IMG/VR virus record: IMGVR_UViG_3300031975_001384
Location: 1-30,730 of that record
Length of the DNA stretch: 30,730 bases
Origin: a virus
Direction: 5' to 3' (one strand)
Within the stretch, counting starts at the first letter, position 1. Each line of letters begins with the position of its first letter. Below, piece after piece: positions 6,996 through 25,959 of this stretch. Made by a program: the position numbers and the translations under genes. The notes under the pieces were generated by a model. That model did no database searches. It saw only the letters and a program-made list of their open reading frames with translations, and was not told the DNA's origin.

Positions 6996-9256
6996 TGCCA
7001 ACATATGGTAAAAACAATTTTAAAGAATCAAATGTAAACTATTTAAATAAAGATTTTAGTGCATTAAAAACATCGTTGATGAATTATGCAAAATCTTATT
7101 TTCCAGATACATATCGTGATTTCAATGAGACATCACCTGGTATGATGTTATTAGAAATGAACGCTTATGTTGGTGATGTGTTGTCTTTTTATATTGATAA
7201 GCAATATCAAGAGATGTTATTACCATTAGCGGAGGAGAGAAGAAACATAATCACTATGGCTAAGATGTTTGGTTATAAAGTAAAACCAATTGTACCAGCT
7301 TATGTTGATTTAACATTTACTTCAAATGTAAATGCTTCAAGTGGTGATGTGTCTAAAGTTGATTATTCAAATGCTAGTGTATTTGATACGGGGATTGAAT
7401 TAACTTCTGATTCTAATTCAGATACTATTTTTACAACATTAGAACCAATTGATTTTAGAATTACAGGTTCAAGTGATACTAATACGATTGGTTCAACAGA
7501 TGGTAGTGGTTTAGCTTCAACTTATACATTATCAAGAACTGTAAGAGCTATGAGTGCAACTCAAAAAACAATTACAATTCAAGTTGGGGTACCTGAAAAA
7601 TTTAAAACCATAACCATACCAGACACAAATGTTATTGATATTATTTCTTGTGTGGATTCAAATGGACAAAATTGGTATGAAGTGGATTACTTAGCACAAG
7701 ATAAAGTTCCAATCACCACTCACTATACAGATGATATTAATAGGGATTCAGCTTATTCAACTGAGGATGGTAGTATTCAATCATCTACAGCTGTACCATT
7801 TTCTTTGAGCTATATCACAACAGGAAAAAGATTTACTCGTGAAACAAATTTAGATAATACAACTTCACTTGTATTTGGTAATGGTGTATTAAAAGATGGA
7901 CAACTCATCGATGAGGGATTCATTGATATGGAACAAGTTGGAATTGTTATTCCTGGTCAGACAAATGATTTGAATGAATCTATTGACCCATTATTGGGTG
8001 ATGAGTATTCAACATTAGGTGAAACACCAAACAACATAACTTTAACCATCACTTATAGAGTGGGTGGTGGTATAAACTCAAATGTACCAAGTGGAGATTT
8101 AACAACTGTACCAACTGGAATCACACCAGCTATTAATGGTGGTGCTACACTTGATACTGTTACAAATAATAATCCAGCTCGTGGTGGTAAGGATGAAGAG
8201 GATACAATTGAAATAAAAGAAAGAGCTAAAGCGTTTTTCACAACACAAAACAGATGTGTTACAAAAGAAGATTATGAAGCTAGAGTATTAAACATACCAA
8301 GTAAGTTTGGTAACATAGCAAAAGCATATGTTACGAGAGAAGCACCTGAAATTGCTGGTACTTCTAATTTAACTACATTAGAAAACTATTTTAATAATGT
8401 ACAAGTCGGTATTCGTAATATGTCAGTCTATTTTAATAGTACTAATGTAAGAGCTCAATTGGGACAATTAATAACTGGTGATTTACCTATAGATGCTTTT
8501 ATTGCAGGATTAGATGTATCATTAACCTTTCCCTCTACTTTTGGAAATATTACAACACCTGATATAAGTAATTTAGCTAGAGAATTAGAATTAGGAACAA
8601 TCAACATTTATTTATTAGGATACAATAATAAAAAACAATTAGTTGGTAATTCAAATACATTAACAACTAAAACAAGTGATAATTTACCATTGACTTTAAT
8701 GACAAACATAAAAAAATATTTAGAAAATTTCAAATTAATGACAGATGTCATAACACTAAATGATGGTTATATTGTTAACTTTGGTGTAATGTTTGATGTA
8801 GTTGCTGAAAAATATGCAAATAAACAAGAAGTTAAATTAAATTGTATACAGAAAATAAAAGATTATTTTAGAATTGAAAAAATGCAATTTAATCAACCAA
8901 TTTATAAAAGTAATTTAGAATATGAATTAATGGGTGTAGAGGGTGTTCGTTCTATTGGACATGTAACAATTACTCAAGAAAAAGATTATTTTTATAATGA
9001 TGGTGAGTTATTAAATTCACCTACTTATACATATTCACATACCGATGATACTGGAGTTGATATAAATGGAAACGGTGAGGCCAATGATCCTGGATACATT
9101 ACCGCAGATGGTGGTACAACTGGATATGGGTATAAGTATGATTTCCAAGATGCTCTTTCAGATGATGGTACAATTGTATTACCACCTTTAACATCAACAC
9201 CAACGGTTTTTGAATTAAAGAATCCAAACCAAAACATACAAGGGAGAGTTAGATAA
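6995..9256 (+). CDS. gp6: Baseplate wedge protein gp6 (baseplate J-like)
   Basis: The main wedge protein, whose dimers form the ring around the hub and transmit the host-contact signal to the sheath. At 753 aa it is somewhat longer than T4 gp6 (660 aa). The N-terminus is highly typical: LNKDFSALKTSLMNYAKSYF, FNETSPGMMLLEMNAYVGD, then LSFYIDKQYQEMLLPLAEER and NIITMAKMFGYKVKP (residues about 17-100). The middle is beta-rich, and the gp6/J-like region with helices around NRCVTKEDYEARVLNIPSKF lies at about residues 416-435. The C-terminal 60 residues are Gly/Asp-rich and unlike T4. GGGAGA lies just before the start, and the gene overlaps both neighbours by one base. Confidence 0.93.
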   Translation: MPTYGKNNFKESNVNYLNKDFSALKTSLMNYAKSYFPDTYRDFNETSPGMMLLEMNAYVGDVLSFYIDKQYQEMLLPLAEERRNIITMAKMFGYKVKPIVPAYVDLTFTSNVNASSGDVSKVDYSNASVFDTGIELTSDSNSDTIFTTLEPIDFRITGSSDTNTIGSTDGSGLASTYTLSRTVRAMSATQKTITIQVGVPEKFKTITIPDTNVIDIISCVDSNGQNWYEVDYLAQDKVPITTHYTDDINRDSAYSTEDGSIQSSTAVPFSLSYITTGKRFTRETNLDNTTSLVFGNGVLKDGQLIDEGFIDMEQVGIVIPGQTNDLNESIDPLLGDEYSTLGETPNNITLTITYRVGGGINSNVPSGDLTTVPTGITPAINGGATLDTVTNNNPARGGKDEEDTIEIKERAKAFFTTQNRCVTKEDYEARVLNIPSKFGNIAKAYVTREAPEIAGTSNLTTLENYFNNVQVGIRNMSVYFNSTNVRAQLGQLITGDLPIDAFIAGLDVSLTFPSTFGNITTPDISNLARELELGTINIYLLGYNNKKQLVGNSNTLTTKTSDNLPLTLMTNIKKYLENFKLMTDVITLNDGYIVNFGVMFDVVAEKYANKQEVKLNCIQKIKDYFRIEKMQFNQPIYKSNLEYELMGVEGVRSIGHVTITQEKDYFYNDGELLNSPTYTYSHTDDTGVDINGNGEANDPGYITADGGTTGYGYKYDFQDALSDDGTIVLPPLTSTPTVFELKNPNQNIQGRVR

Positions 9257-10368
9257 TGCATCATTTTATTTTTCCATCACAAGACACTTGGATTTCAAGT
9301 GGTTCATCAACAATAGATGGTGAGTCTTTCAAAGACCAAAACTTTGGAAAAGACCAAATACTTGAAGTCAAGAAAGAATTTTATAATAGTTCATTTAATT
9401 ATCCAACAAGAGCATTAGTTAATTTTAGTGGAACTGAATTTACTGAGTTATCTAAATCAGTATCAGATGGAACAATACCATCAAATGCTAAATATTATTT
9501 AAGACTTTATGAGGCTGAAGGTAATGCTGAACTGAACGATACATCTTACAGATTAGCTATTCAACCAATATCACAATCTTGGAAAGAGGGTAGTGGTAAG
9601 TTTGGTGATAATCCTAAAAATACAGATGGGTGTAGTTGGGAGAATCGTACAAATCCAATTGGTGGAACTGCAACAGCTTGGGCTGATGCGGGTGTTACTG
9701 TATTAACCGTAAGTGCTTCTGCTCAAAACTTTGATAATGAATCACCTGATATAAATGTTGAAGTAACTAATATGGTGAATATGTGGTTAGAAAGTAGAGA
9801 ACAAAACTATGGTATGTTGATTAGATTCAATGGAACACAAGAAACTGATTCAACTCATTTCGGACATCTAAAATTTTTCTCAAGAAATACACATACGATT
9901 TATTCACCTAAACTTGAAGTCAGATGGGATGATTCATCATTCTCTACTGGTTCATTAAATGAATTAACAATGAGTGGTTTAGCTGATAACTTTTTATATA
10001 TGAAAGGTTTGAGAGAAGAATATAAAGTAGGTGAGAGAGTTAAGTTTAGAGTTGGTGCAAGAAAAAGATATATTCAAAAATCTTTTACTAACTCTGTTCA
10101 AACCGTAACTGGTTCATATATAACTAATGGTAGTGGTTCATACGCAATTAAAGATGTTGCTACTGATGAGTTCATTGTCCCATTTGAAGACTTTCAAGGA
10201 ACAAGTTATACAAAACTTAGTTGCGATAGTGATTCAAATTATTTCATTCAATACTTAGATGGATTCTATCCTGATAGGGTCTATAAAATTTTATTAAAAT
10301 TAAAATATGATGATGGACAAGAACAAGTGTTTGATGATGATTTTGAATTTGTAGTGAAAAGGAAATAG
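9256..10368 (+). CDS. Virion protein with DNRLRE-like (jelly-roll, CBM-like) domain
   Basis: A predicted baseplate or fibre-associated protein of 370 aa. Residues 1-225 follow the DNRLRE / carbohydrate-binding jelly-roll pattern: an initial strand FPSQDTWISSG, then NFGKDQILEVK, a strand RALVNFSG, IPSNAKYYLRLYEAEG, AIQPISQSWKEGSGKFGD, a SWENR segment with a later AWADAG, and a closing IYSPKLEVRW. In this family the domain mostly binds surface glycans or packs in large surface proteins. Residues about 240-370 look like an Ig-type beta domain (VGERVKFRVGARKRYI, ending DDFEFVVKRK). It takes the place of T4 gene 7 after gene 6, but shows no similarity I can see to gp7. Host-surface binding is inferred. 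Confidence 0.7.
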   Translation: MHHFIFPSQDTWISSGSSTIDGESFKDQNFGKDQILEVKKEFYNSSFNYPTRALVNFSGTEFTELSKSVSDGTIPSNAKYYLRLYEAEGNAELNDTSYRLAIQPISQSWKEGSGKFGDNPKNTDGCSWENRTNPIGGTATAWADAGVTVLTVSASAQNFDNESPDINVEVTNMVNMWLESREQNYGMLIRFNGTQETDSTHFGHLKFFSRNTHTIYSPKLEVRWDDSSFSTGSLNELTMSGLADNFLYMKGLREEYKVGERVKFRVGARKRYIQKSFTNSVQTVTGSYITNGSGSYAIKDVATDEFIVPFEDFQGTSYTKLSCDSDSNYFIQYLDGFYPDRVYKILLKLKYDDGQEQVFDDDFEFVVKRK

Positions 10369-10370
10369 TT

Positions 10371-12095
10371 ATGGGTGATTATAGTCAAGAACAAAATAAT
10401 AATTTAATAGGAGAAGAAGTTCGTAACTTCGAAACCTCTGGAAACAATTTAGAAGATTTATTAGATTTAATAGCTGAGGCTTTAATACAAAGTTCATTGG
10501 TTAACACTACAACTGTTGAAGCAAATCAAAAATTTATTCTTAATGGTCAACTTCAACAAGGTTCTGGTGATGGTGTCTTAGCTCTTTTTCAAAAAGACAT
10601 AAAAGCTAATCAAGAAGATTTAAACAATACTATTTTAAACAATGATGGTACACAAGAAAGTTTACAAAATATAGCTAATAGTGTACTTAATTTTAATTCT
10701 TTGATTATTTCAGTTTCAGTTGGACCTGACAATAATGGTGATCAAATTCCTGATTATCCAATATCAATAACACTTGATGGGGGTGGTTTAGATTATCCTG
10801 CTCCAATTGAAATAATTGATTTGATTTATGATAATAATAATCCATTGAATGTAAGTCAATTTATTCCATTATCACAACAACAATCTAATGTTGATATAGA
10901 TAAGGCTAATGAATTTTTAGATACAAATATATTTGAACTCTTACCAACAGGTGATACGAGACAAGCTAGAATTATCAGATTCTTTCAAGAGTTAAATGCA
11001 TTACTTCCACCATCGATTGATGATAGTGATTGGGATTCTGATAATGATGGTAGGGTTGATAGAGAACAGGGAACAGGTAATTGGGAAGGTGCTAACCAAT
11101 ATAATCAAGATAATAGTATCTCATACGCTCAAGATAATCAAGATGGAAACATCGATGAAGAAGATGCATTTATTCATAGATTAACTGGTACAGCAAATGA
11201 TACAAATTCAACAAGAACTATTGAAGAAATTTATAATAGAGTTCTTCCATATTTAAGAGATATATTAGAAGAAGATACTGATTTAGAAGATGGTAGACCA
11301 GAATATAGAAATCAATCAAGTGGATATTTACAATTCAGAAATCCAAATCAGGGTATTATTATTCGTAATACAAATCAAGATTTTATTGAGGGATTAAATC
11401 CAGAAACAAAAGAATATTTAACAACTGGTTTCACCATTACAATGTGGGTAAGATTTTTAGATAAAGTATCAGAGGGTACATTGTTTAATTTTGGAAATCC
11501 AATAAGAGGTGTAAATGCAGAAGGTGATACCGCTGATGAGGATGCTTTCGGATTCAAATTAGAAACTTTTGTAATAAACAAAGATGATGAGTTTCCAACT
11601 AATTCATTTAATACCTTTGGTGACTGTGCAGATGCTTTAACAAATTATAATACTGATTTATTTGATAATTCCAATACTGCGAGATTTGTAAGATTGGTAG
11701 TAAATGACAATGGACAATTACGAGATTCTCATCTTGGTTGTAATGATAATTTTGAAAAATTAAATAACTCTATAGCAGTTTTAGGTTCAACTTTTGGTAG
11801 AGTGGATAGATTGTTAACAACAACACATATACCTGAAGATTTTAATGAATGGTATTTCATATGTGCTTCTTTTAATCCTGCTATAGAAGAAGATGATTCA
11901 CACGACTCGGAAAATCAACAAGGTAACAGCACCTTAGAACAAACACCTGATTATTGGTTAAATCATATTGTTCCAACAAACGATGTAGCTGCTGAATTTA
12001 GTTATACAACTAATTCAGGTTATGGAAACAAATGTAAAGTAGAAATCATATCCAAAACAGACTTACTACGAGCTCGTGGTTTTAAGGTAGATTAA
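10371..12095 (+). CDS. Virion protein with EF-hand-like loops and a LamG-like domain
   Basis: A large 574-aa structural protein. The N-terminal 120 residues are helical with polar Asn/Gln-rich stretches, suited to docking in the baseplate. Two calcium-loop-like motifs follow: DSDNDGRVDREQ (D222, D224, D226, G227) and QDNQDGNIDEED (D258, G259, I261, D265). Residues about 318-510 look like a concanavalin/LamG fold: SGYLQFRNPNQGIIIRN, FTITMWVRFLDKVSEGTLFN, then EWYFICASFNP. The end (KTDLLRARGFKVD) is short and basic. LamG folds in surface proteins often bind sugars or protein partners. It sits between the DNRLRE gene and two paralogous giants and is probably part of the same host-contact apparatus. 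Confidence 0.7.
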   Translation: MGDYSQEQNNNLIGEEVRNFETSGNNLEDLLDLIAEALIQSSLVNTTTVEANQKFILNGQLQQGSGDGVLALFQKDIKANQEDLNNTILNNDGTQESLQNIANSVLNFNSLIISVSVGPDNNGDQIPDYPISITLDGGGLDYPAPIEIIDLIYDNNNPLNVSQFIPLSQQQSNVDIDKANEFLDTNIFELLPTGDTRQARIIRFFQELNALLPPSIDDSDWDSDNDGRVDREQGTGNWEGANQYNQDNSISYAQDNQDGNIDEEDAFIHRLTGTANDTNSTRTIEEIYNRVLPYLRDILEEDTDLEDGRPEYRNQSSGYLQFRNPNQGIIIRNTNQDFIEGLNPETKEYLTTGFTITMWVRFLDKVSEGTLFNFGNPIRGVNAEGDTADEDAFGFKLETFVINKDDEFPTNSFNTFGDCADALTNYNTDLFDNSNTARFVRLVVNDNGQLRDSHLGCNDNFEKLNNSIAVLGSTFGRVDRLLTTTHIPEDFNEWYFICASFNPAIEEDDSHDSENQQGNSTLEQTPDYWLNHIVPTNDVAAEFSYTTNSGYGNKCKVEIISKTDLLRARGFKVD

Positions 12096-12098
12096 AAA

Positions 12099-15000
12099 AT
12101 GAGTTTTGTTACAGAATCAATTTCAACAGGATTCGGTGTAGATGGTGTTACGATTGAACAAACACTATTAAATCCATATGACCCATATAGTGGAATGGAT
12201 ATAGACATAGATTTACCAGGTTTTCAAAACACAAATCAAGGATTTACAGGTTCAAATTATGATGGTAGAATTGAATTAGGTATGTTTTCTTTTAATGATG
12301 ATAATATAGCTTCTGATAATTTTCCAAATGTATTAGGATCACCATTCATAGGTATAACTAAAGGGAATATGGTAAACAATGGTGATTGTAAATTTGTAGA
12401 AAAAGCTTATGTTAAAGATGGTGATTTTCCAGTAATTGTTAAACCTGAAGGAGAGTGGAGATTTTTATCTTTAAAAGAATTAACCAGTTCAAATGTTTGG
12501 AATTATTTCTACACAAATGGTGATGGACAAGGATTTAAAGCCTATGGTGGTAAATACTCATATGTCCCCTTATCATTAGAACAAGGAGAGGGGCCCCCCT
12601 ATCTCGGTCCCTCTCAAGCTGCTGGTATGAATTATTGGGGATATGCTTCAGGTATTAATCTTTTATACGGAGAAACCGGTGAAACTGATCCAGATCAAGA
12701 AGGAGAGTTTGACGACTATGAACAAGACATCATACCACTATCTGATGTATATATACCAACAGGATCACAAGAAGAAGTTTATCAAGCACTAAATGGATCC
12801 ATAGATTCATTAGCTTCTTTTAGAGATAAATTTAAAATTAAATATGATAATTCTCAAGACGTACCACAAATAGCAGCTTGGATAATAACAGATGAAGCTT
12901 ATTCCAATAAAAAATGTTTATGTTTTATGAATTTCAGAATATGGGATGGTGATGAAGTTGTTAAATATACAAATCAAATATATGCACATGGGGGCTGGGC
13001 ATTTAATTGGTTAGTAAAAGCACAGGCACAATCAGAAGGTATAATTAATTTAGATGGTGATATAGAATCAGAAGAAGTAAATACAGAAAATCAATACAGA
13101 GTCTTAAATCAAGTTCAAAAAATTTATGATAAATTCAATGATGAACCATTAAATCCATATAGTTCAGTAAAGATAAGATTTAAAATGAAAACCACACATG
13201 TTTTACCACCATCTAATTATATAGATGATCCACAAGAGTACTATTTTTTCCAAAATATTCCATTATATGAAGGATTAGGATATGCACCAACGGTTGAAAT
13301 TGGTATTTTACAATCTCAATTTGAAGAAACACCTAAGGCTGGTGCTAAAGGGTTACCTGATTTGGGATGGAATGAATACTTTAAAGCACCTGGTAGTTTT
13401 AACTCTAAAAGATATTTCAATGGAGAAACTTTTGATGATAAATTTTATACAGAAATTGGTGGAATGAATAGATTTCAAAATTCTACAATGGATGAATGGG
13501 AAACATTTGAATTTACATACAATTTAACAAATGAACATAACAATAGGGAAAAAATATATGGAGTTCCATATGGTGGTTCATTTGATGATGAATTTAATAG
13601 TGGTTCAGTTGAAATAATGATAAATAACCGTGCGTTTGAGAATGGACTACCAAATGATGATGCTGGTGAGGGAGGTGGTGAAATATATTTTAAAGTTCCA
13701 GGTTATCAAGATAATCCTCAGGAAAAATTTTATATGATTTCTCCTGAATATACTGAATGGGATGGTACACAAAATGTAACAAAAGGTGGTAACCAAGTTT
13801 CTTTTCAACATGCAAGTCTTGAGAGTGATGGTTATATGACAGTATGGAGTAATTTGGGTGAGGGTCAAACAACTGGTTTACAATCTGATGGTACAATTAT
13901 TGAAGCTTATCTAATGTATGTTGGTACGGTTAATCCAAGATTAGAAATGGATCAGGATGCTCAAGGTGATGATGATTTAGCAGATTTGGTTGTTGCGTAT
14001 TGGGATGGTGAAAGATGGAGTTATGATGATAATCAAGGATACAGCACGGGTAGATATTTTACTCCAAATTCTGATTGTTTCATTATAGCTAGATTATATG
14101 CAAGTGTTACTAGTGAAGTAGATGGTATTGGTGGAATGGATAAATACATTGATAATGAAATTGAGTTTCCAACCGATGGTGTTGGCAATTTATCTTTATT
14201 CTTACAATCTGGAAATAACTTTCAAGGTAGAGTATTGATTGATGACATTGAATGTTTTGAATCATATGAGTTCACACCTGATGTTGATGTTAGGAAAAAG
14301 AAATCTGTTGGTAACTACGGTTTAGCAGATTTAACAAAATATTGGGATAAAGAATTACAACCTGAAGAATATAAAGATTCACAAGCACCATTGGAAGCAC
14401 AATTTTATTTTTATCCACAATATCCAACTGATGAAGTATTTGTGGAGAGATTACCCATTTATAATGATTTTAAAAATGGTATGTTTTACATTTATGATAT
14501 AGATTGGGGTGATGGAACACCAAATGAATTTACATCTAAACCTGAACAAATAGATGAGAATACAGCATTATATCATACATATGAATCTAATGGTGTGTTT
14601 GAAGTTACTGGAACAATGTTTAGAGTAAAAACAGATAGTGATGATAATATAGTAGGTGTTGCATATAATAAAAAATTTAAACTACGAATAAATATAAATG
14701 AGGGAAATGATGAAGACTTTCAATATTTTGGAAGTGATGGATATTCATTTATACCTTATAAAAATACCACACCAATAATTGGTGGTATTTCTAAACAAAG
14801 TAATTATTATAAAAAAACAAAAAGACAACTTGGATTTTTAGATAGTGAAAAAATAAACATAGAATTTAAAAATAAAAGTGATAAGTTAAAAACTGAATTG
14901 GCTCTTTTAAAAATGGAAAATCAAAGTAATTTAAATTTAGAAGTATTACCAAATTATAGGTTTGAAAGATTTGATAATCAAGGAGTTAAAATTTATAATG

Positions 15001-15563
15001 GTATATCACCAATCAAAGAAGAATTAGGAAAAGGAATTGGTGATTGTGATTTAACAAATATAAAATATTACAATGAACCAAAATCAATTTGGGAGATGTT
15101 TGGTTTTGATGGTGGGGATTTACAGCAAGTAGGTAATCCTAATAATGATAGATATTGGAAAAATATTATTCCTAAAGATTATTCTATATTTAATAGAGAA
15201 GGATTAAATGGTGATTTAATAGATACTTATTCAGAACAAGAATGGTTAGATAGTTCATATTATCCTGTATTACCAAAATATGGAGCTGATGGTAAATTCA
15301 TTGATGGAAACTTTCCAAACAATAAAATACCATTTCCAATACAAAGTAGTATAACTGATGAAAATGAATCCGATAAAAACTTAATAATTAATATTGTTAA
15401 TGAAAAAAATGATGTAGAAGTTTTTAATGATAAGAGTGGAAATAAAAATTATGGTTTTTCAATTGGGGATTTTAATCCTAAATTTGATGAAGAAACTTTA
15501 AGGGTGAAAAAAAATAAATCAAAAAGTATATTTAAAACATCTAGACCAAATGGGGCATTTTAA
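12099..15563 (+). CDS. Giant virion protein with PKD-like domain, paralogue A
   Basis: A 1154-aa protein of mostly beta, Gly/Asp/Asn-rich sequence with no signal peptide. At about residues 765-860 a PKD-like (Ig fold) domain is visible: DIDWGDGTPNEF (W803-G-D-G-T807), then ALYHTYESNGVFEVTG with H826-T-Y828, the two hallmark motifs. A jelly-roll-like strand RVLIDDIECFESYEF precedes it (about 711-725). Residues 889-1154 are shared with the next gene: TTPIIGGISKQSNYYKK, GKGIGDCDLTNIKYYN, and an end DKSGNKNYGFSIGDF with final NGAF. PKD domains in surface proteins serve as spacers or bind polysaccharide. The stop overlaps the next start by one base. A short GC-rich inverted repeat is embedded at 12586-12615. 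Confidence 0.7.
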   Translation: MSFVTESISTGFGVDGVTIEQTLLNPYDPYSGMDIDIDLPGFQNTNQGFTGSNYDGRIELGMFSFNDDNIASDNFPNVLGSPFIGITKGNMVNNGDCKFVEKAYVKDGDFPVIVKPEGEWRFLSLKELTSSNVWNYFYTNGDGQGFKAYGGKYSYVPLSLEQGEGPPYLGPSQAAGMNYWGYASGINLLYGETGETDPDQEGEFDDYEQDIIPLSDVYIPTGSQEEVYQALNGSIDSLASFRDKFKIKYDNSQDVPQIAAWIITDEAYSNKKCLCFMNFRIWDGDEVVKYTNQIYAHGGWAFNWLVKAQAQSEGIINLDGDIESEEVNTENQYRVLNQVQKIYDKFNDEPLNPYSSVKIRFKMKTTHVLPPSNYIDDPQEYYFFQNIPLYEGLGYAPTVEIGILQSQFEETPKAGAKGLPDLGWNEYFKAPGSFNSKRYFNGETFDDKFYTEIGGMNRFQNSTMDEWETFEFTYNLTNEHNNREKIYGVPYGGSFDDEFNSGSVEIMINNRAFENGLPNDDAGEGGGEIYFKVPGYQDNPQEKFYMISPEYTEWDGTQNVTKGGNQVSFQHASLESDGYMTVWSNLGEGQTTGLQSDGTIIEAYLMYVGTVNPRLEMDQDAQGDDDLADLVVAYWDGERWSYDDNQGYSTGRYFTPNSDCFIIARLYASVTSEVDGIGGMDKYIDNEIEFPTDGVGNLSLFLQSGNNFQGRVLIDDIECFESYEFTPDVDVRKKKSVGNYGLADLTKYWDKELQPEEYKDSQAPLEAQFYFYPQYPTDEVFVERLPIYNDFKNGMFYIYDIDWGDGTPNEFTSKPEQIDENTALYHTYESNGVFEVTGTMFRVKTDSDDNIVGVAYNKKFKLRININEGNDEDFQYFGSDGYSFIPYKNTTPIIGGISKQSNYYKKTKRQLGFLDSEKINIEFKNKSDKLKTELALLKMENQSNLNLEVLPNYRFERFDNQGVKIYNGISPIKEELGKGIGDCDLTNIKYYNEPKSIWEMFGFDGGDLQQVGNPNNDRYWKNIIPKDYSIFNREGLNGDLIDTYSEQEWLDSSYYPVLPKYGADGKFIDGNFPNNKIPFPIQSSITDENESDKNLIINIVNEKNDVEVFNDKSGNKNYGFSIGDFNPKFDEETLRVKKNKSKSIFKTSRPNGAF
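12586..12615. repeat. GC-rich inverted repeat inside a coding region
   Basis: GAGAGGG (12586-12592) and CCCTCTC (12609-12615) form a 7-bp stem, and the sequence between includes the self-complementary GGGGCCCC (12590-12597) within a G4C6 run. No T tract follows, so it is not an intrinsic terminator. It encodes EGPPYLGPS using CCC and CTC codons that are scarce in the surrounding A+T-rich genes. Confidence 0.6.
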
Positions 15564-18133
15564 TGGCTGAAAAGAAGATAATAGTTGATAAACCAAAAGT
15601 TGGTGATATAAGTCAATATAATTTTGATGATGGGTATTCAACCACTCCACCTAATTATAACGATTCTACAGGTTTACCTGAAAACAATGATAAATTTCAG
15701 AAAAAAGATTTATTTACTAATTGTGTGGGTGATGAACTAAATGAAAAAATAATTGAAGCAAATCTTAAATTTCAAGGTGACCCTTATATCAAAATTGACA
15801 ATTTATATATTTCAAATACTGGTGTGGATGGTACTGTAAAAAGTAATCATGTCTCTGGTTGGATATTTTCTCAAGAAGCTTATGGTGGTGACCCAACAAA
15901 AGACGGATACTCCACAGTAAGAGATAAAATGAAAGATGAGTGGAAATTTTATTCAAGTGGTTTTGGTAGTCAAGGTGAGGGTTCTGATATTGGAAATATT
16001 ACTAATGTTGAGGGTATTCCAATCGTATCTAACTTTGGTATAGAGGCTTCTCAAATTATATTGGGTGATTTTACAGGAAAAACTATTGATTTTAATGATG
16101 ATGGTGGTTTAGATGCTTTCAAACTTGACCCGATGGAATCAGGTGAAGGTGATACCCTTCCCCCAACTCAAACAACTATATTTAATGAACAACAATACAA
16201 TCCTATCTATATTGTTATTTATATGAGAGGACATAAAAAAGTAGCTTGGCCCGTAAATACAGATGAAAGAAAAAGAAGATATGATATTTTCAAAATAAGT
16301 AGTGATGATTTGTTTGAACGGGTAGGTGACAATTTTATTGGTAAGGTATATGAAACTAACTTTATTGGTGCAACAAAATCAAAAACTGGTGAAGGTGGAG
16401 GCGGAGCTACACAAGCTGCTTGGAAAGTAACTTCACTTAATTTGAGTATTAATACATCAGCTGGAGTTAAAAATAATTTTTCTGATGTTTCTAATTATAA
16501 AGAATTTATAAACCAAGTTTTACCTAAATCTAAAATAGATGAAAATATTTTTAATAGTGTTCAATGGTTAAGTTCTTTAAATCCAGCTACACAACTTGAT
16601 AATAATCAAATTCCTGGAGCAAATGAAACATTAGAAAGACATATTGATTTTATACCTTTTACATCATTTGGATTTAGTCAAAACAATCAACTTGCTAATA
16701 ATTATATAGATTTACAAACTTATAATAATGATTTTGATTTAATTATGAAATCATCAAGTCCATTAAATGTAACATTTAATATTGATGTAAAAGGAATTGA
16801 TGGAAATAATTTAACAACTTCAGATACATTTTATTATTATTTTGTAATTGATTGGAATGATACTGAGGAAAAATTTAAAACAATAGAAAATTGGTTAGAT
16901 TCAAAACCAGAAAATGCATTTGATTATTTAGAAAAACAAAATGAAAATTTATATAAGATTTATTCTACAAGAGATTCAAATACACCAAGCAATGTTTATA
17001 CAACACCTGGAATTAAAAACATAAAATTTATTATGTTAAGTGTATTTGATGGTGATGGTGGAACAGATGATTCTCCAGATTTTGAAGTTGGAAGATGGAA
17101 ACTTTGTACATCAAGAATTTATTTAGATATACCACCAAATCAATATCCTGATTTCTCTGATGTTGGTGGTAGTGATTACACAACACTCCCTTGGCCATTT
17201 ACAACTCCAATTATTAGTGGAGTTAGTGAAAATTCAAAATACAAAAAAAGTATTCAAAATACATTAGGTGGTGGAAAAATAGGTGATTTTGATTTTATTG
17301 ATGAGAGGTTTTTAGTTAATGATTTAGAAAATGATGAAATGGGAAAAAATATAGAAACTATGGATTTAGAACAATGTAGGTATTTCAATCAAAGTTATAA
17401 TATGAATACATTGTTAAACATAGAACCCATTGTACAAGAAATTTTTGATACATACGAAGAGGACTTGCAACCAGTTAATTATTTTTTCAATTTTGGATAT
17501 AATGACCCCGACCTTATAGATTATTATGGACAAGAATATCTTATATCAGCTGAGTATTTAGCCACTTTACCATTTCCACAATATTTAGAAGAATTTGACA
17601 TCGATGGAGATGGTGAGTTAAGTCCAGTAGATGCATCAAGATGGAATAGAGTAGATACACTTGCATTTAGACCTGATATAGCAGCTTTAATCGGAGCACT
17701 CTCCGTTGGTAATAATCCCCCAACTGAATATACTTATCCTGATTATGTTTTTAATTGGAGTAATATAAATGATATACCAAGTGCTCTTATTCCTGAAGGT
17801 GCATCTATAGAATCATTTAAACCATATAATTACATAAATGATAATGAATCAATATATTGGGATGGAGAAACAAATAAATTTTCAGAGGAAAGTTCAGTCG
17901 GACAGATATTTATAGGTGATAACTCAGATTTAGATTTAAAACAAAGTTGTAAGTTAGAACTAAATACTGGTGAGTTAACTGGTAAATCTATTTTGGATAC
18001 AAGTGGTAATTCAAATAAAGGATTATTAATCGGTGACTATAAAGTCAAAAAAGTTAAAAAAGGCCAATTTATGAGAAGAGATTCATTTATAAAAGTTCCT
18101 AAAAAAGTTAGTAATAAAAACGGAGCATTGTAA
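15563..18133 (+). CDS. Giant virion protein with canonical EF-hand/dockerin-like loop, paralogue B
   Basis: An 856-aa structural protein sharing its C-terminal third with the preceding gene: TTPIISGVSENSKYKKS (from about residue 546), GKNIETMDLEQCRYFN, and an end DTSGNSNKGLLIGDY with final NGAL. Upstream is a degenerate PKD-like stretch in which WGDGT is replaced by DWNDTEEKF, followed by VYTTPGIKNIKFIML. Residues 679-690 (DIDGDGELSPVD) fit a canonical EF-hand or dockerin calcium loop, with D679, D681, D683, G684, L686 and D690. The N-terminal 90 residues are polar and probably flexible. It probably forms a calcium-stabilised part of the adhesion apparatus. TAATG overlap couples it to the next gene, and the GGAG in the terminal Gly codon serves as that gene's ribosome binding site. 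Confidence 0.7.
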   Translation: MAEKKIIVDKPKVGDISQYNFDDGYSTTPPNYNDSTGLPENNDKFQKKDLFTNCVGDELNEKIIEANLKFQGDPYIKIDNLYISNTGVDGTVKSNHVSGWIFSQEAYGGDPTKDGYSTVRDKMKDEWKFYSSGFGSQGEGSDIGNITNVEGIPIVSNFGIEASQIILGDFTGKTIDFNDDGGLDAFKLDPMESGEGDTLPPTQTTIFNEQQYNPIYIVIYMRGHKKVAWPVNTDERKRRYDIFKISSDDLFERVGDNFIGKVYETNFIGATKSKTGEGGGGATQAAWKVTSLNLSINTSAGVKNNFSDVSNYKEFINQVLPKSKIDENIFNSVQWLSSLNPATQLDNNQIPGANETLERHIDFIPFTSFGFSQNNQLANNYIDLQTYNNDFDLIMKSSSPLNVTFNIDVKGIDGNNLTTSDTFYYYFVIDWNDTEEKFKTIENWLDSKPENAFDYLEKQNENLYKIYSTRDSNTPSNVYTTPGIKNIKFIMLSVFDGDGGTDDSPDFEVGRWKLCTSRIYLDIPPNQYPDFSDVGGSDYTTLPWPFTTPIISGVSENSKYKKSIQNTLGGGKIGDFDFIDERFLVNDLENDEMGKNIETMDLEQCRYFNQSYNMNTLLNIEPIVQEIFDTYEEDLQPVNYFFNFGYNDPDLIDYYGQEYLISAEYLATLPFPQYLEEFDIDGDGELSPVDASRWNRVDTLAFRPDIAALIGALSVGNNPPTEYTYPDYVFNWSNINDIPSALIPEGASIESFKPYNYINDNESIYWDGETNKFSEESSVGQIFIGDNSDLDLKQSCKLELNTGELTGKSILDTSGNSNKGLLIGDYKVKKVKKGQFMRRDSFIKVPKKVSNKNGAL

Positions 18134-21100
18134 TGCCAGATTTTGAATTTGAATTTAATCAACAAGATAAAGATTTAGTTTTAAACCAAACTGATGGCAC
18201 ATTTGGTGGAGACTCTATGGATAATAGAGATTATATTCGCTTAACCATTTATCCATCAGAAGCTATTAACAACATTGTTACACTTCCAGGTACTGATAAA
18301 CAAGCAATATTTTATTCTTCTTTACATTACACTTCATTTGATATTAATATATCTCCTTTTGGTATTGGTACAGATGTTTTTAATACTTATCCAATTGGTG
18401 GAGATATTAATAATGGTAAAGGTGGTGACTTTAAAATATATAGAACTCTTGATTCAGATGGAAATCCATTACCTAATAGTGATATATATATAAAACCAAA
18501 TGAAATATTTAATGATTTTGAATTACCTCAAGGTGATTACAAAATACAAATTGATTTTTTAAATCAACTTAGACCTTCTGATTTATCTACACATTATAAG
18601 TTTATTATAAAACAAATATCAACTTCAAGAAAAGAAGTTCGTTTAAAAATACTTGATGAACCTATATTAAATGATTCAAATGTTATCACTAATTTAACAA
18701 ATGAATTAAATCAAAATACTGACAACTATCAATTCAAACATGTATTAAATATTGGAACTGGTGACCACAACCCAATAATGAATTATCAATTTGATGCAGT
18801 AACTGATGGTAAAGATAATCAATCAATCATTTTAAAACTCTATGAACCATTACCAACTAATGTTGGAAACTTATCAATGGTTACTATTGAGAGGGAAGTT
18901 TTAACAACACAAATTCAAGACATATTTTATTTCTCTGATGTACCCGATGTTTTCTTCGGTGATGGGTTAAATTCACAACCACAATCAGATTGGATAAATC
19001 CTGATGGTAGTGATTTAGGATTTCAAAGTTTAGATGAAATAGCTATATCTTCATCTATTGGTGATATTGAAGTTGACTCCTTAATATCATCAAGTGACTA
19101 TGGTTATCCAAATTTAAATACAGACTTTAATGAATTTAAAAATCATACACATTTTGGTTCGGCTAAAAAGAAACTACAAAACTTTAAAACAAAAGTTGAA
19201 ACCATTCAAGGATATTATTCTGATATATCAAGTTCATTATCAAGTGATGGGGTAGCTATTAGTGGTGACTCAACTTTTTTAGTTCAAAAAAGAAAAAATT
19301 TATTTGATAAAATTAATCAAGAAATTAAAACATTTACACCTTATGAGAAATTTCTATACTACGATGCTCAAAGTGAATCAACAGCATCAGCTCCATCTTT
19401 AAAAAATTATGCACCCTCAACTCCAGTAGGACCAAAACATGATGGTATTGAATTAAATCAATATGATGGATTCAATGTTGTATATCAAAGAACAAATGAT
19501 ACAGCAAGTATAAGTGCAGCTGGAATCACTCCGGGTTCACAACAATGGGTTGCTTTAACTCAAGATTTATATGATGTTCAAAGTAAACCATTTTTTAATT
19601 ATAGTAGTTCAGTTTATTTGTCTTTTGTAATGAAAGGTGATGAAACTATAGATTATTCTATGGGAGCTACAAAAGAATTACAATGGGATCAGTTTGGAAT
19701 GACAACTACTGGAAATGGACTTGGTGTACCATTACCAAAAAGTTCTCAATTTAGAGAAAGACTTTTACAACCATCAATTACAGGAAGTGAATATAAAAGA
19801 TTTATTTATCATTCTTCAATGTCATATTGGATACCAAAAGAAAATATAGATTTTGCGGATATACCAACAAATGGAGGTGGAGAAACACTTGATGATAGCT
19901 CTATAACTCTTTTACATGGAAGTGTTAAAGCAGGTTCTTATCAAGTTAAAGACTCTACTGGTAAATATCCAACAACTGTTGTAACTCAAAGTGGAGCTCC
20001 ATTTAAAGGTTCTTGTATGCCGGCTGGTGAATTATTTAGAATTTATTTTAGAGGAGATTTGGGTGGAATAACATCATCATTTATGACTGATGTAAGAGTA
20101 ACATTAAAAGACCCAAGAGATGTTTTACCATTTGATAATGTGTTTAAAACAACTTCTAATGAATGGACTACTTGGTATAACAATGCTTTAACACAAGCAG
20201 AAAACTTTGATACCAATAACATTCATTCATTTGAAAACAATTTACCTCTTTACATTCAAGAAAGTTCTGATTATGATGAAATGAAAGATTTTCTTGCATT
20301 ACAAGGTGAACAATATGATTTAATTAGAAACCATATCGATTCGGTAGGAACAATCCATAACAGAGGATATAAAAAAACAAATTCACCACCTGATAACACA
20401 TTACCAATGTTGTTATCTAATATGGGTTGGCAAGCTATAAATCCATTTGAAGGTAATTTAACAGAAACATTGGGAAGTTATTTAAGTGGTGTTACTTCAA
20501 TTGATGATATTAAAAATAATACTTGGAGAAAAACTCTAAACAATTTATTATACATTTATAAATCAAAAGGAACAAAAAATTCAGTAAGAGCATTATTGAA
20601 CACATATGGTTATCCACCTGATGTTTTAAATTTTCAAGAATTTGGTGGAGCAGTTGAATCATCTAATAATGGTGGTGACAATCCATTAAATAATGATAAT
20701 GTACCTACTAGTGGTAATATTGATACTGATTTAAATTTATCTACTGGAAGTTTTAATTTTACTACTCAAAAAAGAAAATTATACAATTATAGAATTGGTG
20801 GAAACTTTCAAAAAGTTATCCACACAGAACACTATAGAAATAATGCACCGATAAATACTATTGAATTTGTCTATAAACATGTAAAATCTACAAAAGACCA
20901 ACAAATTGTTACGAAAGCTGCTCATGCGACTCTTGATACTGAATTATTTGATTTAAGATTAATACCAAGTTCGGATGGTGCTAGTTCATCATTTGAATTT
21001 AGATTAAATAATTCAAACACAGGATCTTTCGAAATTGCTGACAATGCTGTTTCAATGTCAACTAATTTTTTAAATATGAACGATGGACAATTATGGAATG

Positions 21101-23127
21101 TGATGTTACAAAGAATGACATCAAGTATAAGTGGTAGTGGAATTAATGAATATAGATTACATACAGCTTTACAAGATGGTAGTTCTATAAAAACATATGG
21201 TTATGTTACAATGTCTGTTAGTGGTGGATTAACAGCTGATAGTAATTTTTATGCAAACCAAAATTGGCCTGGTACAGGTTCTTTTGTATCAATTGCAACT
21301 ATTGGTAACTTAAATTTTGGTGGTAGATTTAATCCAGAGGTTGCGTCTACAAATCCTGAAATGACAGGTTCCCTAGCAGAAATCAGAGGTTGGTCAACAG
21401 TATTAAGTGCATCTAAATTTAGACAACATACATTGAATAAATTTTCTATTGTTGGTAATACAATATTATCACATTGTAAAGAATTAGTATATCATTATAA
21501 ATTAAATGAAAATTACGGACAACAAACTGATACTGAATCAGGAAGTGGTGCAGTTCATTCAATATCATCATCAACTCAAAATATGACAATAGTTGATTCA
21601 GCACACGAATTTGGAAACTATAATTTATCTAAACAAGCTCATATATTTTTAACAAGTTCTGTTTATGGTTTTGATATTATTGATATTATTCAACCAACTC
21701 TACAAGATAATATCAGTTTACAAAATGATAATAATATTATAATAAATCCAAATAATACAATAGTCGGTAATTTAAATCCAAATCAAAGTGCCGTGTTACC
21801 ACTAACAGATAAATCAAGTGGAAAACCAATATTAAACATATCACCTAAATTAGAATTATATCGTTCACCTCAAAATTTTGTTAATGATTTTATAATAGAT
21901 AAAATTGGTGGATTTAACTTAGAAAATAAATATGGAAATCCATTAAATTTTTACTCTCAATCATACGATGAATTTGACACATTTAGAAAAGAATTTTTCG
22001 ATTGTTATGATATTAAAATAGATGTTAACAAATTCGTAAGGTCTCACCAGTCAATGTTTAATCATTCATTAAGTGAGGGTTTAAAACAAGTAGTACCAGC
22101 TCGTTCAACATTTAGTGATAAAAATTCAAACTTTGGTGTAGAGATAAAACCAACTATTTTAGAAAAACAAAAATATGAACACCATGACTATTCAATTGAA
22201 ACGAATCCAAATACTGGTATTGGTACTATTGATGTTGATTCGATTACACATGTTCCTACTTCAAATTATGAGACAATAAAAGAAGGAACAATACAAGGGG
22301 CTCCGACATCTGTTGGTTCTTATGAAGTACCTTATACTGATACTATAAGTTTAGGTAATTCTTATGTTACAAGTAGTGGGTATTTAAAAGATGCACCTAC
22401 TAAAAATCATAATCAAGTACCATTTTTACAACCAGGTGGTTATGTAACTACAATTGAAAATCCATATAGTGCTTCAATATCACCATTACCAACTTATGGG
22501 GGTTCAACTGTTGTTCTTTCTAAAGATGGAACTATTGATTATGCTTCAAGAGTAAATGAATCTTATAAAAGTGTACATAAAGATTGGGGGAGAACTAATA
22601 ATGATGTCCAACATATAAATTTTGCAGCTCCAACTGCTTCAGATGGTACTTTTAATACATATCATATAGATACGAGAGTTGTTTTTCACGCTATAGGTGA
22701 CCACGAACATTATTCCTCTTCAGCTCAATCTGGTGGTCAAGATAATTTTTCAAATAGTGGTAGATTTCATAATAGATTAATAATAGATACAGATTTTCAT
22801 GCAGATGTAACCTATGATAGTAAAAACTTTGGATTAGGTACAGGAATTGTAACTGGAAGAATGATGGGTAAAACAAGATATTTTTCTACTGGTTCTGATG
22901 GAAATATTATACTACCATCAAATCATATTGCTAAATTTAGTTATCCATTTAAAGAAAGAATGGTTGATGGAACACAAAATTTAAATCCAGGTACATTAGA
23001 TGTTCAACACGAAGATTATTCAACATCTTCATTTTATAGAGTTAAAGTAACTGGTGGTGAAACTTCAATATATGTTAAAGGAACAAGTAATCCATCAAAG
23101 GATGATAATGATAATATCATCTATTAA
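18133..23127 (+). CDS. Giant virion protein, gp7/P2-gpI-like region plus LamG-like domain
   Basis: The largest gene, 1664 aa, probably a baseplate wedge/fibre-connecting or host-contact protein. Residues about 700-840 show a pattern shared by P2 gpI-type tail proteins: LALQGEQYDLIRNHIDSVGT, then LPMLLSNMGWQA, WRKTLNNLLYIYKSKGT and SVRALLNTYGYPPD (KGT at about 812-814). Residues about 890-1125 look like a LamG/concanavalin module (APINTIEFVYKHVKS, then GSLAEIRGWSTVLSASKF, LVYHYKLNENYG). After that comes SEGLKQVVPARSTFSDKNSN (about 1316-1335) and a Ser/Thr/Gly-rich, beta-rich C-terminus. Its size and position late in the wedge gene order make it a candidate functional counterpart of T4 gp7 (1032 aa), but overall similarity to gp7 is not evident. 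Confidence 0.65.
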   Translation: MPDFEFEFNQQDKDLVLNQTDGTFGGDSMDNRDYIRLTIYPSEAINNIVTLPGTDKQAIFYSSLHYTSFDINISPFGIGTDVFNTYPIGGDINNGKGGDFKIYRTLDSDGNPLPNSDIYIKPNEIFNDFELPQGDYKIQIDFLNQLRPSDLSTHYKFIIKQISTSRKEVRLKILDEPILNDSNVITNLTNELNQNTDNYQFKHVLNIGTGDHNPIMNYQFDAVTDGKDNQSIILKLYEPLPTNVGNLSMVTIEREVLTTQIQDIFYFSDVPDVFFGDGLNSQPQSDWINPDGSDLGFQSLDEIAISSSIGDIEVDSLISSSDYGYPNLNTDFNEFKNHTHFGSAKKKLQNFKTKVETIQGYYSDISSSLSSDGVAISGDSTFLVQKRKNLFDKINQEIKTFTPYEKFLYYDAQSESTASAPSLKNYAPSTPVGPKHDGIELNQYDGFNVVYQRTNDTASISAAGITPGSQQWVALTQDLYDVQSKPFFNYSSSVYLSFVMKGDETIDYSMGATKELQWDQFGMTTTGNGLGVPLPKSSQFRERLLQPSITGSEYKRFIYHSSMSYWIPKENIDFADIPTNGGGETLDDSSITLLHGSVKAGSYQVKDSTGKYPTTVVTQSGAPFKGSCMPAGELFRIYFRGDLGGITSSFMTDVRVTLKDPRDVLPFDNVFKTTSNEWTTWYNNALTQAENFDTNNIHSFENNLPLYIQESSDYDEMKDFLALQGEQYDLIRNHIDSVGTIHNRGYKKTNSPPDNTLPMLLSNMGWQAINPFEGNLTETLGSYLSGVTSIDDIKNNTWRKTLNNLLYIYKSKGTKNSVRALLNTYGYPPDVLNFQEFGGAVESSNNGGDNPLNNDNVPTSGNIDTDLNLSTGSFNFTTQKRKLYNYRIGGNFQKVIHTEHYRNNAPINTIEFVYKHVKSTKDQQIVTKAAHATLDTELFDLRLIPSSDGASSSFEFRLNNSNTGSFEIADNAVSMSTNFLNMNDGQLWNVMLQRMTSSISGSGINEYRLHTALQDGSSIKTYGYVTMSVSGGLTADSNFYANQNWPGTGSFVSIATIGNLNFGGRFNPEVASTNPEMTGSLAEIRGWSTVLSASKFRQHTLNKFSIVGNTILSHCKELVYHYKLNENYGQQTDTESGSGAVHSISSSTQNMTIVDSAHEFGNYNLSKQAHIFLTSSVYGFDIIDIIQPTLQDNISLQNDNNIIINPNNTIVGNLNPNQSAVLPLTDKSSGKPILNISPKLELYRSPQNFVNDFIIDKIGGFNLENKYGNPLNFYSQSYDEFDTFRKEFFDCYDIKIDVNKFVRSHQSMFNHSLSEGLKQVVPARSTFSDKNSNFGVEIKPTILEKQKYEHHDYSIETNPNTGIGTIDVDSITHVPTSNYETIKEGTIQGAPTSVGSYEVPYTDTISLGNSYVTSSGYLKDAPTKNHNQVPFLQPGGYVTTIENPYSASISPLPTYGGSTVVLSKDGTIDYASRVNESYKSVHKDWGRTNNDVQHINFAAPTASDGTFNTYHIDTRVVFHAIGDHEHYSSSAQSGGQDNFSNSGRFHNRLIIDTDFHADVTYDSKNFGLGTGIVTGRMMGKTRYFSTGSDGNIILPSNHIAKFSYPFKERMVDGTQNLNPGTLDVQHEDYSTSSFYRVKVTGGETSIYVKGTSNPSKDDNDNIIY

Positions 23128-23203: not shown

Positions 23204-23911
23204 ATGGGATATTTAGATAATTCATCAATTACGGTTGATGCAGTCTTAACAAAAAAAGGTAGAGAAATTTTAAAAGATGGTGGTAATTTAAATATCACAT
23301 CATTCACATTATCAGACACTGGAGTAGATTATTCTTTATGGAATCCAAGTCACCCAAGTGGTTCATCACATTATGGTGAGGCTATTGAAAACTTACCAAT
23401 GTTAGAAGCTAGTGTTCATGCAGAATACAATTTAAGAAATAGACTAATAAGTTTAAATCAAAATACAGTTGCTATTCCTGCTTTAGTATTAGGAAATTTA
23501 GATTCGGCTGGAGGAACAATAAAAACTTTTAACGAAGGTGGTGAAGGTACTGGTAATATATCTATAAAATTAGTAGGTTATACACCAGCTGGTAATGTAA
23601 CTGGTTTTCAATATTACTTTGTTATTCAAGACCCAACACTTATCTCTACAAATGCTTCAAGTATGGGTGGAGTAAGTGGAACAAGTAGACAATTTTTACA
23701 AGAACAAGATATTCCATCCGCTCAACAATATGGATTTAATGGTGGGGGTTTTACAATAACTCCAATTCAACAAGATGTTGTTGGTAGACAAACAAATGTT
23801 TATGTAGTTCATAGAGAAACTGGTGCTTACAATTCATTTACTGTAATAAACAACATTACTAAAAACCAAAGACAAATATTAGAAACAGGTGGTATTGGTT
23901 CTACCAATTAA
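23204..23911 (+). CDS. Virion structural protein, first gene of second late unit
   Basis: A 235-aa protein with no signal or membrane segment, beta-rich with Gly/Asn/Thr turns. The N-terminus MGYLDNSSITVDAVLTKKGR followed by EILKDGGNLNITSFTLSDTG and later HYGEAIENLPMLEA resembles, from memory, a family recurring in marine phage structural clusters; I cannot name its role. It has a dedicated putative late promoter and a strong TAGGAGA site, which suggests high expression, and it precedes two more virion-type genes. Tail, neck or fibre-base protein are all possible. Confidence 0.7.
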   Translation: MGYLDNSSITVDAVLTKKGREILKDGGNLNITSFTLSDTGVDYSLWNPSHPSGSSHYGEAIENLPMLEASVHAEYNLRNRLISLNQNTVAIPALVLGNLDSAGGTIKTFNEGGEGTGNISIKLVGYTPAGNVTGFQYYFVIQDPTLISTNASSMGGVSGTSRQFLQEQDIPSAQQYGFNGGGFTITPIQQDVVGRQTNVYVVHRETGAYNSFTVINNITKNQRQILETGGIGSTN

Positions 23912-23929
23912 TAATTAGGAGATAAATAA

Positions 23930-25036
23930 ATGGCAATCGCAGGCGGAAATATAACATTAGATTCAACGGAAGGAATGGATAAAATTTCTCAAACAGAGAA
24001 AGTAACTTCTCCATATTTTTCAGATGGTTCAACCACATTAGCTGCTGCTAATATAGTTTCATCATCTTTAACAGATACAAATGAAACTTACTTTTTTGGA
24101 ATATCAAATTCCACAACACCAACTGTTGAAGAATTTAATGTTGCTTTCGGTAGTACACGGGGTTATGGTTCAAATGATGATGCTAACGCAATTAAAGCTC
24201 CAACGGATGCTATTTATAAACAATATGCTAATTTACTTCTGGCTCCTACAGAGGTAACTGGTGGATTTTTTATCTCATCTCCTGGTTCAGGTGGTGCTAT
24301 AACAACTGGTAAAGACACGGAAATATTTGTTCTTTCTGCAAGACGCTCTAATATGAAAGATAGAATTAATAAAGGAACTTGGACTATCGCTCTTAGTGGT
24401 TCTAATACAGCTGGAACTGCAGGTGCTACACTACTTGAATTAACAGATGACAGTGTAAATAGTAATCCAACTGCTACTCCGGCTGGTGATAGATATAATA
24501 TCGTGAGTGGTTCTGCTGGAACTGTTGTAACAGGTCATGAAGCTACTGTGAAAAATTATGGTTTCTTTTATCCTGATATGGGAATTATGGTATTAAGTCA
24601 ACAAGAATTATCTGCTTCAATACCTGGTAAGGGTGCTGATATTAATGATCCAGTTGTTTTTGATGAAGCTACACATAAAGGATTTTCAACTGGTACAGGT
24701 GTAGATGCAAATAAAAAATTCGCACTTAGATTTATAAATTGTTTACAACCAACTGGTGCTAAACTTACATTCAGAGATGAAGAAGACCAAGTAAGTGCTC
24801 AATATTTTTGTAGAGTTAGAAGTGGACAAATGAACTTCTCAAACAACCCAACATATGTTTCTGGTTCATTAAATGAATTAAGACAAAAAACTATGAAAGG
24901 TAATCCATCAACATTTATCTCATCAGTTCAATTATATAATAATGCTGGTGACATAGTTGCAGTTGGTAATCTTTCAACACCATTAAAGAAAAACTTTAGT
25001 TCAGAAGCTACTATAAAAGTTAAACTAACTTATTAA
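23930..25036 (+). CDS. Virion structural protein, paralogue of the following gene
   Basis: A 368-aa beta-rich protein, rich in Ser, Thr, Gly and Asn. The C-terminal half contains KNYGFFYPDMGIMVLSQQEL, then LTFRDEEDQVSAQYFCRVRS and MNFSNNPTYVSGSL, ending SSVQLYNNAGDIVAVGNLS and a final IKVKLTY. The same order of elements appears in the next gene, so the two are probably ancient duplicates. It shares strong TAGGAGATAAA translation signals with the upstream virion gene and lies 18 bases after it. A role as a repeated structural subunit (tail, baseplate or fibre) is likely, but the exact place in the virion is unknown. Confidence 0.7.
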   Translation: MAIAGGNITLDSTEGMDKISQTEKVTSPYFSDGSTTLAAANIVSSSLTDTNETYFFGISNSTTPTVEEFNVAFGSTRGYGSNDDANAIKAPTDAIYKQYANLLLAPTEVTGGFFISSPGSGGAITTGKDTEIFVLSARRSNMKDRINKGTWTIALSGSNTAGTAGATLLELTDDSVNSNPTATPAGDRYNIVSGSAGTVVTGHEATVKNYGFFYPDMGIMVLSQQELSASIPGKGADINDPVVFDEATHKGFSTGTGVDANKKFALRFINCLQPTGAKLTFRDEEDQVSAQYFCRVRSGQMNFSNNPTYVSGSLNELRQKTMKGNPSTFISSVQLYNNAGDIVAVGNLSTPLKKNFSSEATIKVKLTY

Positions 25037-25047
25037 GATGGGTTACT

Positions 25048-25959
25048 ATGCATGTATTCGGAGAGATTGATAAATCATCAACCACAATTGAAAGTAATGT
25101 AGTAAATTACACTCATAACTTATCAGCATCTTCTGCTGGTATTCAAACGATAAAAATAGTTTCTGCTTCATCTAATACTAATTATTGGGACTCTCTAAAT
25201 GTTATGTTTTATACAAGTGGTTCTTCTGTTTATGGTAATGAACACAAGTTTGGAAGACCCTCAAGTAATCTATCAATACAACCAACCACTGGTGAACAAT
25301 TTTTAACAAAATATCATGGATATTCAAATAGTTCTTTAATATCTATACCATCTAAATATTATGGTGAAAAAATAAAAGAGGGTTCATTTACATTTACAGA
25401 CTTAAACAATCCTGATAATGCTGGTATTAATCCAATAATAAGAGATGATGGTTTTGGTAATTTATATTCAACAAATGCTAATTCTAATTTTGGAACATTA
25501 ACAGCATCTTCAGCTGGTACAAATAATTCCATATCATCATCTGAAAATTATGTTGGTAATATATTTTATGATAAAGGTTTAGTAGTAATTGCAGAAACAG
25601 GTTCTTGGAGTGGTAGTGTGAAGTATTCAGATTTAGGTACAAATTATAGTTTAAAATTTGATTCGGTTAATACGATAAATACTCATGAATATAATGTTAC
25701 ATTATTACCTCAAGATTTTAATCTAACAACTAATTATTCAATTAGAAATGTATTAACAACAGATACAGAACCATTAAAATTATCAACACCATTTATAGGT
25801 GCTATGTTTACAAGTAGTAATTGGCAACCATATATTACTAAAATTAAATTATATCAAAATGGTGATTATGATACACCTGTAATTGAAGCTGCTTTACCAA
25901 AACCAATTAAAAAAAGTGATAAGATAAATATGAGATTTAAAATAAGATTAGACATTTAG
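25048..25959 (+). CDS. Virion structural protein, divergent paralogue of the preceding gene
   Basis: A 303-aa protein with the same block order as its upstream neighbour: SFTFTDLNNPDNAG, NPIIRDDGFGNLYS, GNIFYDKGLVVIAETGSWSG, EYNVTLLPQDFNLTTNYSI, then ITKIKLYQNGDYDTPVIEAA, PKPIKKS and a final RFKIRLDI. The match to its neighbour is strongest in the 'FY.kG..V', 'FN.t.NyS' and closing 'KLY.nGd...a.l..P.kk' elements. No good Shine-Dalgarno is visible (AAGATGGG only), so it may rely on coupling to the gene 11 bases upstream. It is the last gene of the second late unit; its stop lies in the TAGGAG of the resolvase gene. Confidence 0.7.
   Translation: MHVFGEIDKSSTTIESNVVNYTHNLSASSAGIQTIKIVSASSNTNYWDSLNVMFYTSGSSVYGNEHKFGRPSSNLSIQPTTGEQFLTKYHGYSNSSLISIPSKYYGEKIKEGSFTFTDLNNPDNAGINPIIRDDGFGNLYSTNANSNFGTLTASSAGTNNSISSSENYVGNIFYDKGLVVIAETGSWSGSVKYSDLGTNYSLKFDSVNTINTHEYNVTLLPQDFNLTTNYSIRNVLTTDTEPLKLSTPFIGAMFTSSNWQPYITKIKLYQNGDYDTPVIEAALPKPIKKSDKINMRFKIRLDI

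Follow-up and report, generated by a model that had tools for sequence, protein, structure and literature searches.

In AlgoCIS, a bacterial injection system of Algoriphagus machipongonensis, the wedge-type spike-cage baseplate protein Alg11 carries two CBMs, which were proposed as an aid to attachment (PMC8894135). By analogy, AlgoCIS would be the nearest structural precedent for the modular baseplate considered here; the likeness, drawn from description and not from homology between Alg11 and C, D or E of our locus, lies in a marine Bacteroidota wedge-type protein extended by CBMs, whereas in the clade studied here the modules occur in several proteins and vary between relatives. Two cultured phages, Flavobacterium phage vB_FspM_immuto (NC_055915; hereafter immuto), which infects Flavobacterium, and Microcystis phage Mel-JY01 (PP395634), recorded from Microcystis, have the gene order gp25-gp6-A-X-E-F-G in common with our locus (letters as in Table 1; X stands for whatever lies between A and E). 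Their A protein is ~31% identical to ours over the full length and the E core is shared, whereas they have one gene (~112 or 413 aa) between A and E where our locus has B, C and D. The T4 baseplate (gp6-gp7-gp8-gp9-gp10-gp11-gp12) shares wedge relatives of gp25 and gp6, and a T4-type portal and terminase occur in a close relative of our phage, but no match to A or to the E core was found in the Escherichia phage T4 record. The E core can be aligned in register with P2 gpI (Tail_P2_I) over the KGT motif and the helix behind it, although E is about nine times longer and has a lectin-like domain.

The stretch analysed (the window) comprises all 30,730 bases of an IMG/VR virus record, has a GC content of ~29% and is itself a fragment of a larger genome. 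Directly behind gp6 lie, head to tail, ORFs of 370, 574, 1154, 856 and 1664 aa at 9256-23127 (A, B, C, D and E), in agreement with an earlier note made from the sequence alone; homologues in the same order recur in many contigs, indicating that these are real genes and not chance ORFs. The gp6 protein matched Baseplate_J at 0.0003, slightly below the cut-off. A PHROG scan detected no gp7-gp12 homologues in A to E after gp6, and gp8-gp12 matches were likewise absent. The downstream genes in the window are RuvC, primase and SbcD/C. An HNH endonuclease ORF (PHROG 1.7e-12) occupies positions 136-771, followed at 771-2102 by a 443-aa ORF that reads as glycosyltransferase-like and has no PHROG match. 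An exact 23-mer from the end of the window matched three other records, none of which extends the window's phage.

Table 1. Features of the window, with the evidence on which each assignment rests.
Feature	Position	Strand	Evidence
gp25-like baseplate wedge protein, 155 aa	6528..6995	+	PHROG 261 baseplate wedge subunit, 5.3e-17
gp6 / baseplate J-like wedge protein, 753 aa	6995..9256	+	PHROG 219 baseplate wedge, 4e-22
A, 370 aa, DNRLRE/CBM96 at residues 7-121	9256..10368	+	PF24517, 2.4e-6
B, 574 aa, clade-specific; possible LamG-like part at ~residues 352-500	10371..12095	+	Motif-level hint
C, 1154 aa, modular frame	12099..15563	+	C-terminal part paralogous to D
C insertion slot, residues ~940-1060	14916..15278	+	Extra residues in relatives, some with CBM60
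D, 856 aa, modular frame; C-terminal 90 residues conserved	15563..18133	+	Comparison with relatives
D dockerin-like mobile module	17567..17722	+	LPFPxYxEEF module; canonical EF-hand loop inside
E, 1664 aa, candidate gp7/gpI-type wedge arm with lectin-like domain	18133..23127	+	Homologues
E core, residues 675-839, invariant KGT motif	20155..20649	+	Conservation in 79 sequences; gpI profile
E LamG/concanavalin-like jelly roll, residues ~905-1100	20845..21432	+	Foldseek on low-confidence model
F (235 aa), G (368 aa) and H (303 aa), conserved cassette tail	23204..25959	+	Synteny, homologues
SbcD/C ORF, cut by record end	29405..30730	+	In relatives, tail-fibre ORFs start just past SbcD/C

The order gp25-gp6-A-B-C-D-E-F-G-H-RuvC-primase was kept in related marine contigs, and gp25-gp6-A-X-E-F-G in a wider aquatic phage set including the cultured immuto and Mel-JY01 and also LR756508, which argues that the run is a baseplate cassette. 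A profile search with the E core yielded at least 562 related stretches, the best 80 of which were kept, and 72 loci from these were compared. The gp25-gp6-A-X-E-F-G order was seen again in these loci, with X mostly a single gene of 72 to ~920 aa. E is present in all 72 by construction; for the other genes, whose counts are limited by the flank length of each locus, the numbers of loci were 49 (A), 48 (gp6), 56 (F), 50 (G), 19 (H) and 0 (B). Homologues of F, G and H were present in cultured relatives. The comparison indicates that in the window's clade B, C and D have replaced a single variable X gene, and the run is, as judged from gene content and order, an enlarged form of a tail-baseplate gene block that many viruses of aquatic bacteria share. 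G and H (window 23930-25959) share a C-terminal region with several long Mel-JY01 proteins (954, 718 and 591 aa; L100:22128-31071); they may therefore belong, as short representatives, to a fibre-like family whose N-terminal parts vary.

A 69-kb relative (G002) has the same order, then fibre ORFs and, further on, a T4-type terminase and Portal_T4. In a tblastn ranking its portal was nearest to those of Mel-JY01, immuto and LR756508, followed by that of the Far-T4 phage RM378 of Rhodothermus, in which no A or E-core match was found. The window's phage probably infects a marine bacterium of the Bacteroidota: Bacteroidetes have been linked with a Far-T4-like genome of marine origin (PMC7198788) and immuto infects Flavobacterium, yet Mel-JY01 is recorded from Microcystis. 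A scan of genome contigs with the E core retrieved two small contigs binned in MAGs, which were not taken as proof of a host.

Protein A matched CBM96 (PF24517) with 27.9 bits against a cut-off of 26, bearing out the DNRLRE module reported in the earlier note; this was the only clean family match within the window's run. Full-length homologues of A occur in immuto, Mel-JY01 and LR756508, and an alignment of relatives revealed strong conservation. A profile search of A against the PDB returned nothing meaningful, and its AlphaFold model, for which the named-phage rows were left out of the alignment, reached a pLDDT of 54 and gave no trustworthy Foldseek match. One related locus carries a duplicated A (L025:6163-12013), the two homologues (68% and 50% identity) flanking an unrelated 1138-aa ORF. 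Homologues of B were found in ~50 related loci, with no match among the named phages searched or in the 72 diverse loci (0/72); no Pfam LamG match was obtained for B, in which LamG is a motif-level hint.

C and D, to judge by a profile alignment of their C-terminal parts (hhalign 9.7e-16), are paralogues in that region. Full-length relatives of C range from 1150 to 2127 aa, and C had no match in any named phage searched. In C, D and E, conserved stretches are broken at set points where relatives hold extra sequence (C ~940-1060, D ~610-770, E near 143 and 640), amounting to as many as ~700 extra residues in the C slot, while D residues 765-856 are 80-96% identical in several relatives. CBM60, a calcium-dependent xylan-binding module, was detected above the cut-off in the C inserts of three relatives (1.4e-10, 7.3e-8 and 2.7e-8) and below it in a fourth, adding to the support for the earlier proposal of baseplate-linked proteins with carbohydrate-binding-type domains. 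The PKD domain that had been read into the run fell below the cut-off in the window's C (0.015; 15.7 bits against 23.5) and was not upheld. Among the aligned C, D and E proteins, 24 copies of a dockerin-like module opening with LPFPxYxEEF were counted. The canonical EF-hand loop (DxDxDG.....D/E) occurs once, at D residues 679-690 (17597-17632), and in none of the window's A, B, C and E; most dockerin-like copies lack it, so that of the EF-hands and the calcium dependence formerly suggested one loop stands, and the dependence itself can be put forward tentatively. No clear evidence was obtained that a module had been transferred into the window very recently.

Other observations were made on C homologues and their surroundings. 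One C homologue matched HINT/intein splicing domains (PT-HINT 8.5e-10), which suggests that a baseplate gene has taken up an intein or a similar element. A diverged relative (G009) has a C homologue of 3103 aa and, between RuvC and primase, two extra ORFs of 1190 and 1080 aa (L237-L239, 13781-20582, minus strand) carrying dockerin-like and GCTD..ACNY..ATDDDGSC-type repeats, repeats of this sort being common in secreted Bacteroidota proteins.

As the earlier note had stated, no fibre or gp9-gp12 sequence was found among the window proteins scanned, the record ending inside sbcD/C. The relatives extending past SbcC (three distinct, in five records) all have a tail-fibre-type ORF there. Those of G002, of 2044 and 1184 aa, matched tail-fibre PHROGs (4.8e-23 and 6.4e-18), contain VGIGTTSP-type repeats and gave tblastn matches to cyanophage and Thermus phage tail fibres; counterparts were present in the near-identical G011 and in G001 and G010, and an ORF of 2230 aa resembling these closes the record of G009, a more distant relative. 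In immuto, annotated fibre and spike genes directly follow the cassette. The relatives' fibres are, from their sequence, repetitive and like those of marine cyanophages. The earlier note had named gp34-gp37-type fibres elsewhere in the genome as evidence against its reading: fibre ORFs were found in every relative long enough, but sequence comparison did not show gp34-gp37 homology. For the window's own phage we infer fibres at the corresponding site, since the record ends just before it. Between the two fibre ORFs of G002 lies an 867-aa protein (L224:7521-10121), 78% identical in G001/G010, with no match among named phages and a sequence that looks beta-helix-like.

These data bear on the proposal that host recognition depends solely on the giant proteins, as a calcium-dependent shell that binds carbohydrate and replaces the tail fibres. 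The CBM96, LamG-like and dockerin-like modules of the run and its surroundings, and the lack of a fibre match inside the window, are what such a shell would predict, but the fibre-type ORFs past SbcC in all three relatives, the fibre and spike genes of immuto and the mostly loop-less dockerin-like copies make it very improbable. With fibre genes a few kilobases downstream in close relatives, the run is probably not a replacement for tail fibres, and for the lineage, as far as its records extend, the claim of substituted fibre genes was not sustained. Our preferred explanation, given moderate confidence, is that a contractile phage lineage related to T4 has enlarged its baseplate cassette into this run, and that the periphery of the baseplate carries swappable, presumably glycan-binding modules alongside fibres.

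Homologues of E were found in immuto, Mel-JY01, LR756508 and IMG/VR aquatic contigs, and across 79 sequences its core has an invariant KGT and conserved flanks. The core gave an hhalign score of 27.7 (E 0.0028) against four diverse gpI proteins, compared with a maximum of 18.0 in 60 column shuffles; the value of 0.0028 was reached once the gpI set had been extended by three Tail_P2_I proteins, taken from genomes of bacteria in the same phylum as a Flavobacteriales MAG. The same core was not significant by hhalign against T4 gp7 or against a narrow P2 gpI set, E had no Pfam match to the gpI family, and a profile search of the core against the PDB returned nothing meaningful. Kinship of the E core with gpI, to which its similarity is weak, is thus supported, not proven, and E, on its gene position and gpI resemblance, is the best candidate of the run for a gp7-like wedge protein. 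The LamG domain previously read in B and E had no Pfam match in the window's proteins; nevertheless Laminin_G_3 was present in six of the 16 members of the E alignment (best 1.5e-14), at the place of an extra inserted domain that spans ~250 aa near residue 640 in several relatives, and a jelly roll was partially modelled in E. The AlphaFold model of E residues 1-1130 had a pLDDT of 39 and was usable only around this jelly roll, a concanavalin-like fold predicted with moderate confidence over residues ~909-1030 within a poor model. For this part Foldseek gave matches with probability 1.0 to PL7 alginate lyases and to galectins, and also returned jelly rolls of thrombospondin. Taken as a whole, the earlier observation was partly confirmed and its interpretation partly supported.

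The strong, scaffold-like conservation of A, of the E core and of the C-terminal part of D, together with A being a constant partner of gp6, would also suit giant proteins that are mainly structural, in which beta-sandwich, PKD-like and jelly-roll domains stiffen and space the wedges and hold the fibres without binding glycans; the gp7-like part has been described as the fibre-binding site in related injection systems (PMC8894135). Slots with interchangeable modules, and CBM60 above the cut-off, are however unexpected in a purely structural part, and we regard this explanation as rather unlikely. Less likely again is that the modules bind environmental particles or matrix, such as algal polysaccharide or mucus, and keep the phage near its hosts instead of binding the host cell. 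CBM96, CBM60 and the PL7-like jelly rolls do recall algal and plant glycan binding, and the Ig-like domains of T4 Hoc offer a precedent in their adherence to mucus (PMC9853417), but the modules lie in the baseplate operon and not among head genes, and this possibility is considered improbable.

A, E, F and G constitute, as synteny shows, a conserved block adjoining gp25 and gp6, and under the favoured reading of an expanded baseplate cassette E would provide a gp7/gpI-type wedge arm through its KGT core, a step that is supported, not proven. Comparison of relatives shows that the X gene became B, C and D in the window's clade, and that CBM60, LamG_3 and dockerin-like modules are gained or lost from one relative to another at fixed slots within the conserved frames of C, D and E. 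The outward-facing side of the baseplate would carry the modules, glycans of the host surface would be their ligands, and exchanging them would retune adsorption. Repetitive tail fibres, encoded after SbcCD in the relatives and presumably in the window's phage, would imply that the modules act together with fibres. Glycan binding, calcium dependence and a virion location are what we infer for the proteins of the run; a CBM-like fold need not bind sugar.

In cultured members this conserved baseplate block is annotated as hypothetical almost throughout; the comparison delimits it and assigns probable roles. We suggest as a possibility, one to which we give somewhat less than even weight, that a large T4-related lineage of phages of aquatic bacteria has a second adhesion device (the C, D and E slots) beside its fibres, with host range set by slot content and fibres together. 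If the slots are glycan-binding, a widespread aquatic phage group would retune its adsorption by swapping baseplate modules, and slot content, readable straight from metagenomes, could link phage contigs to host polysaccharides or capsules.
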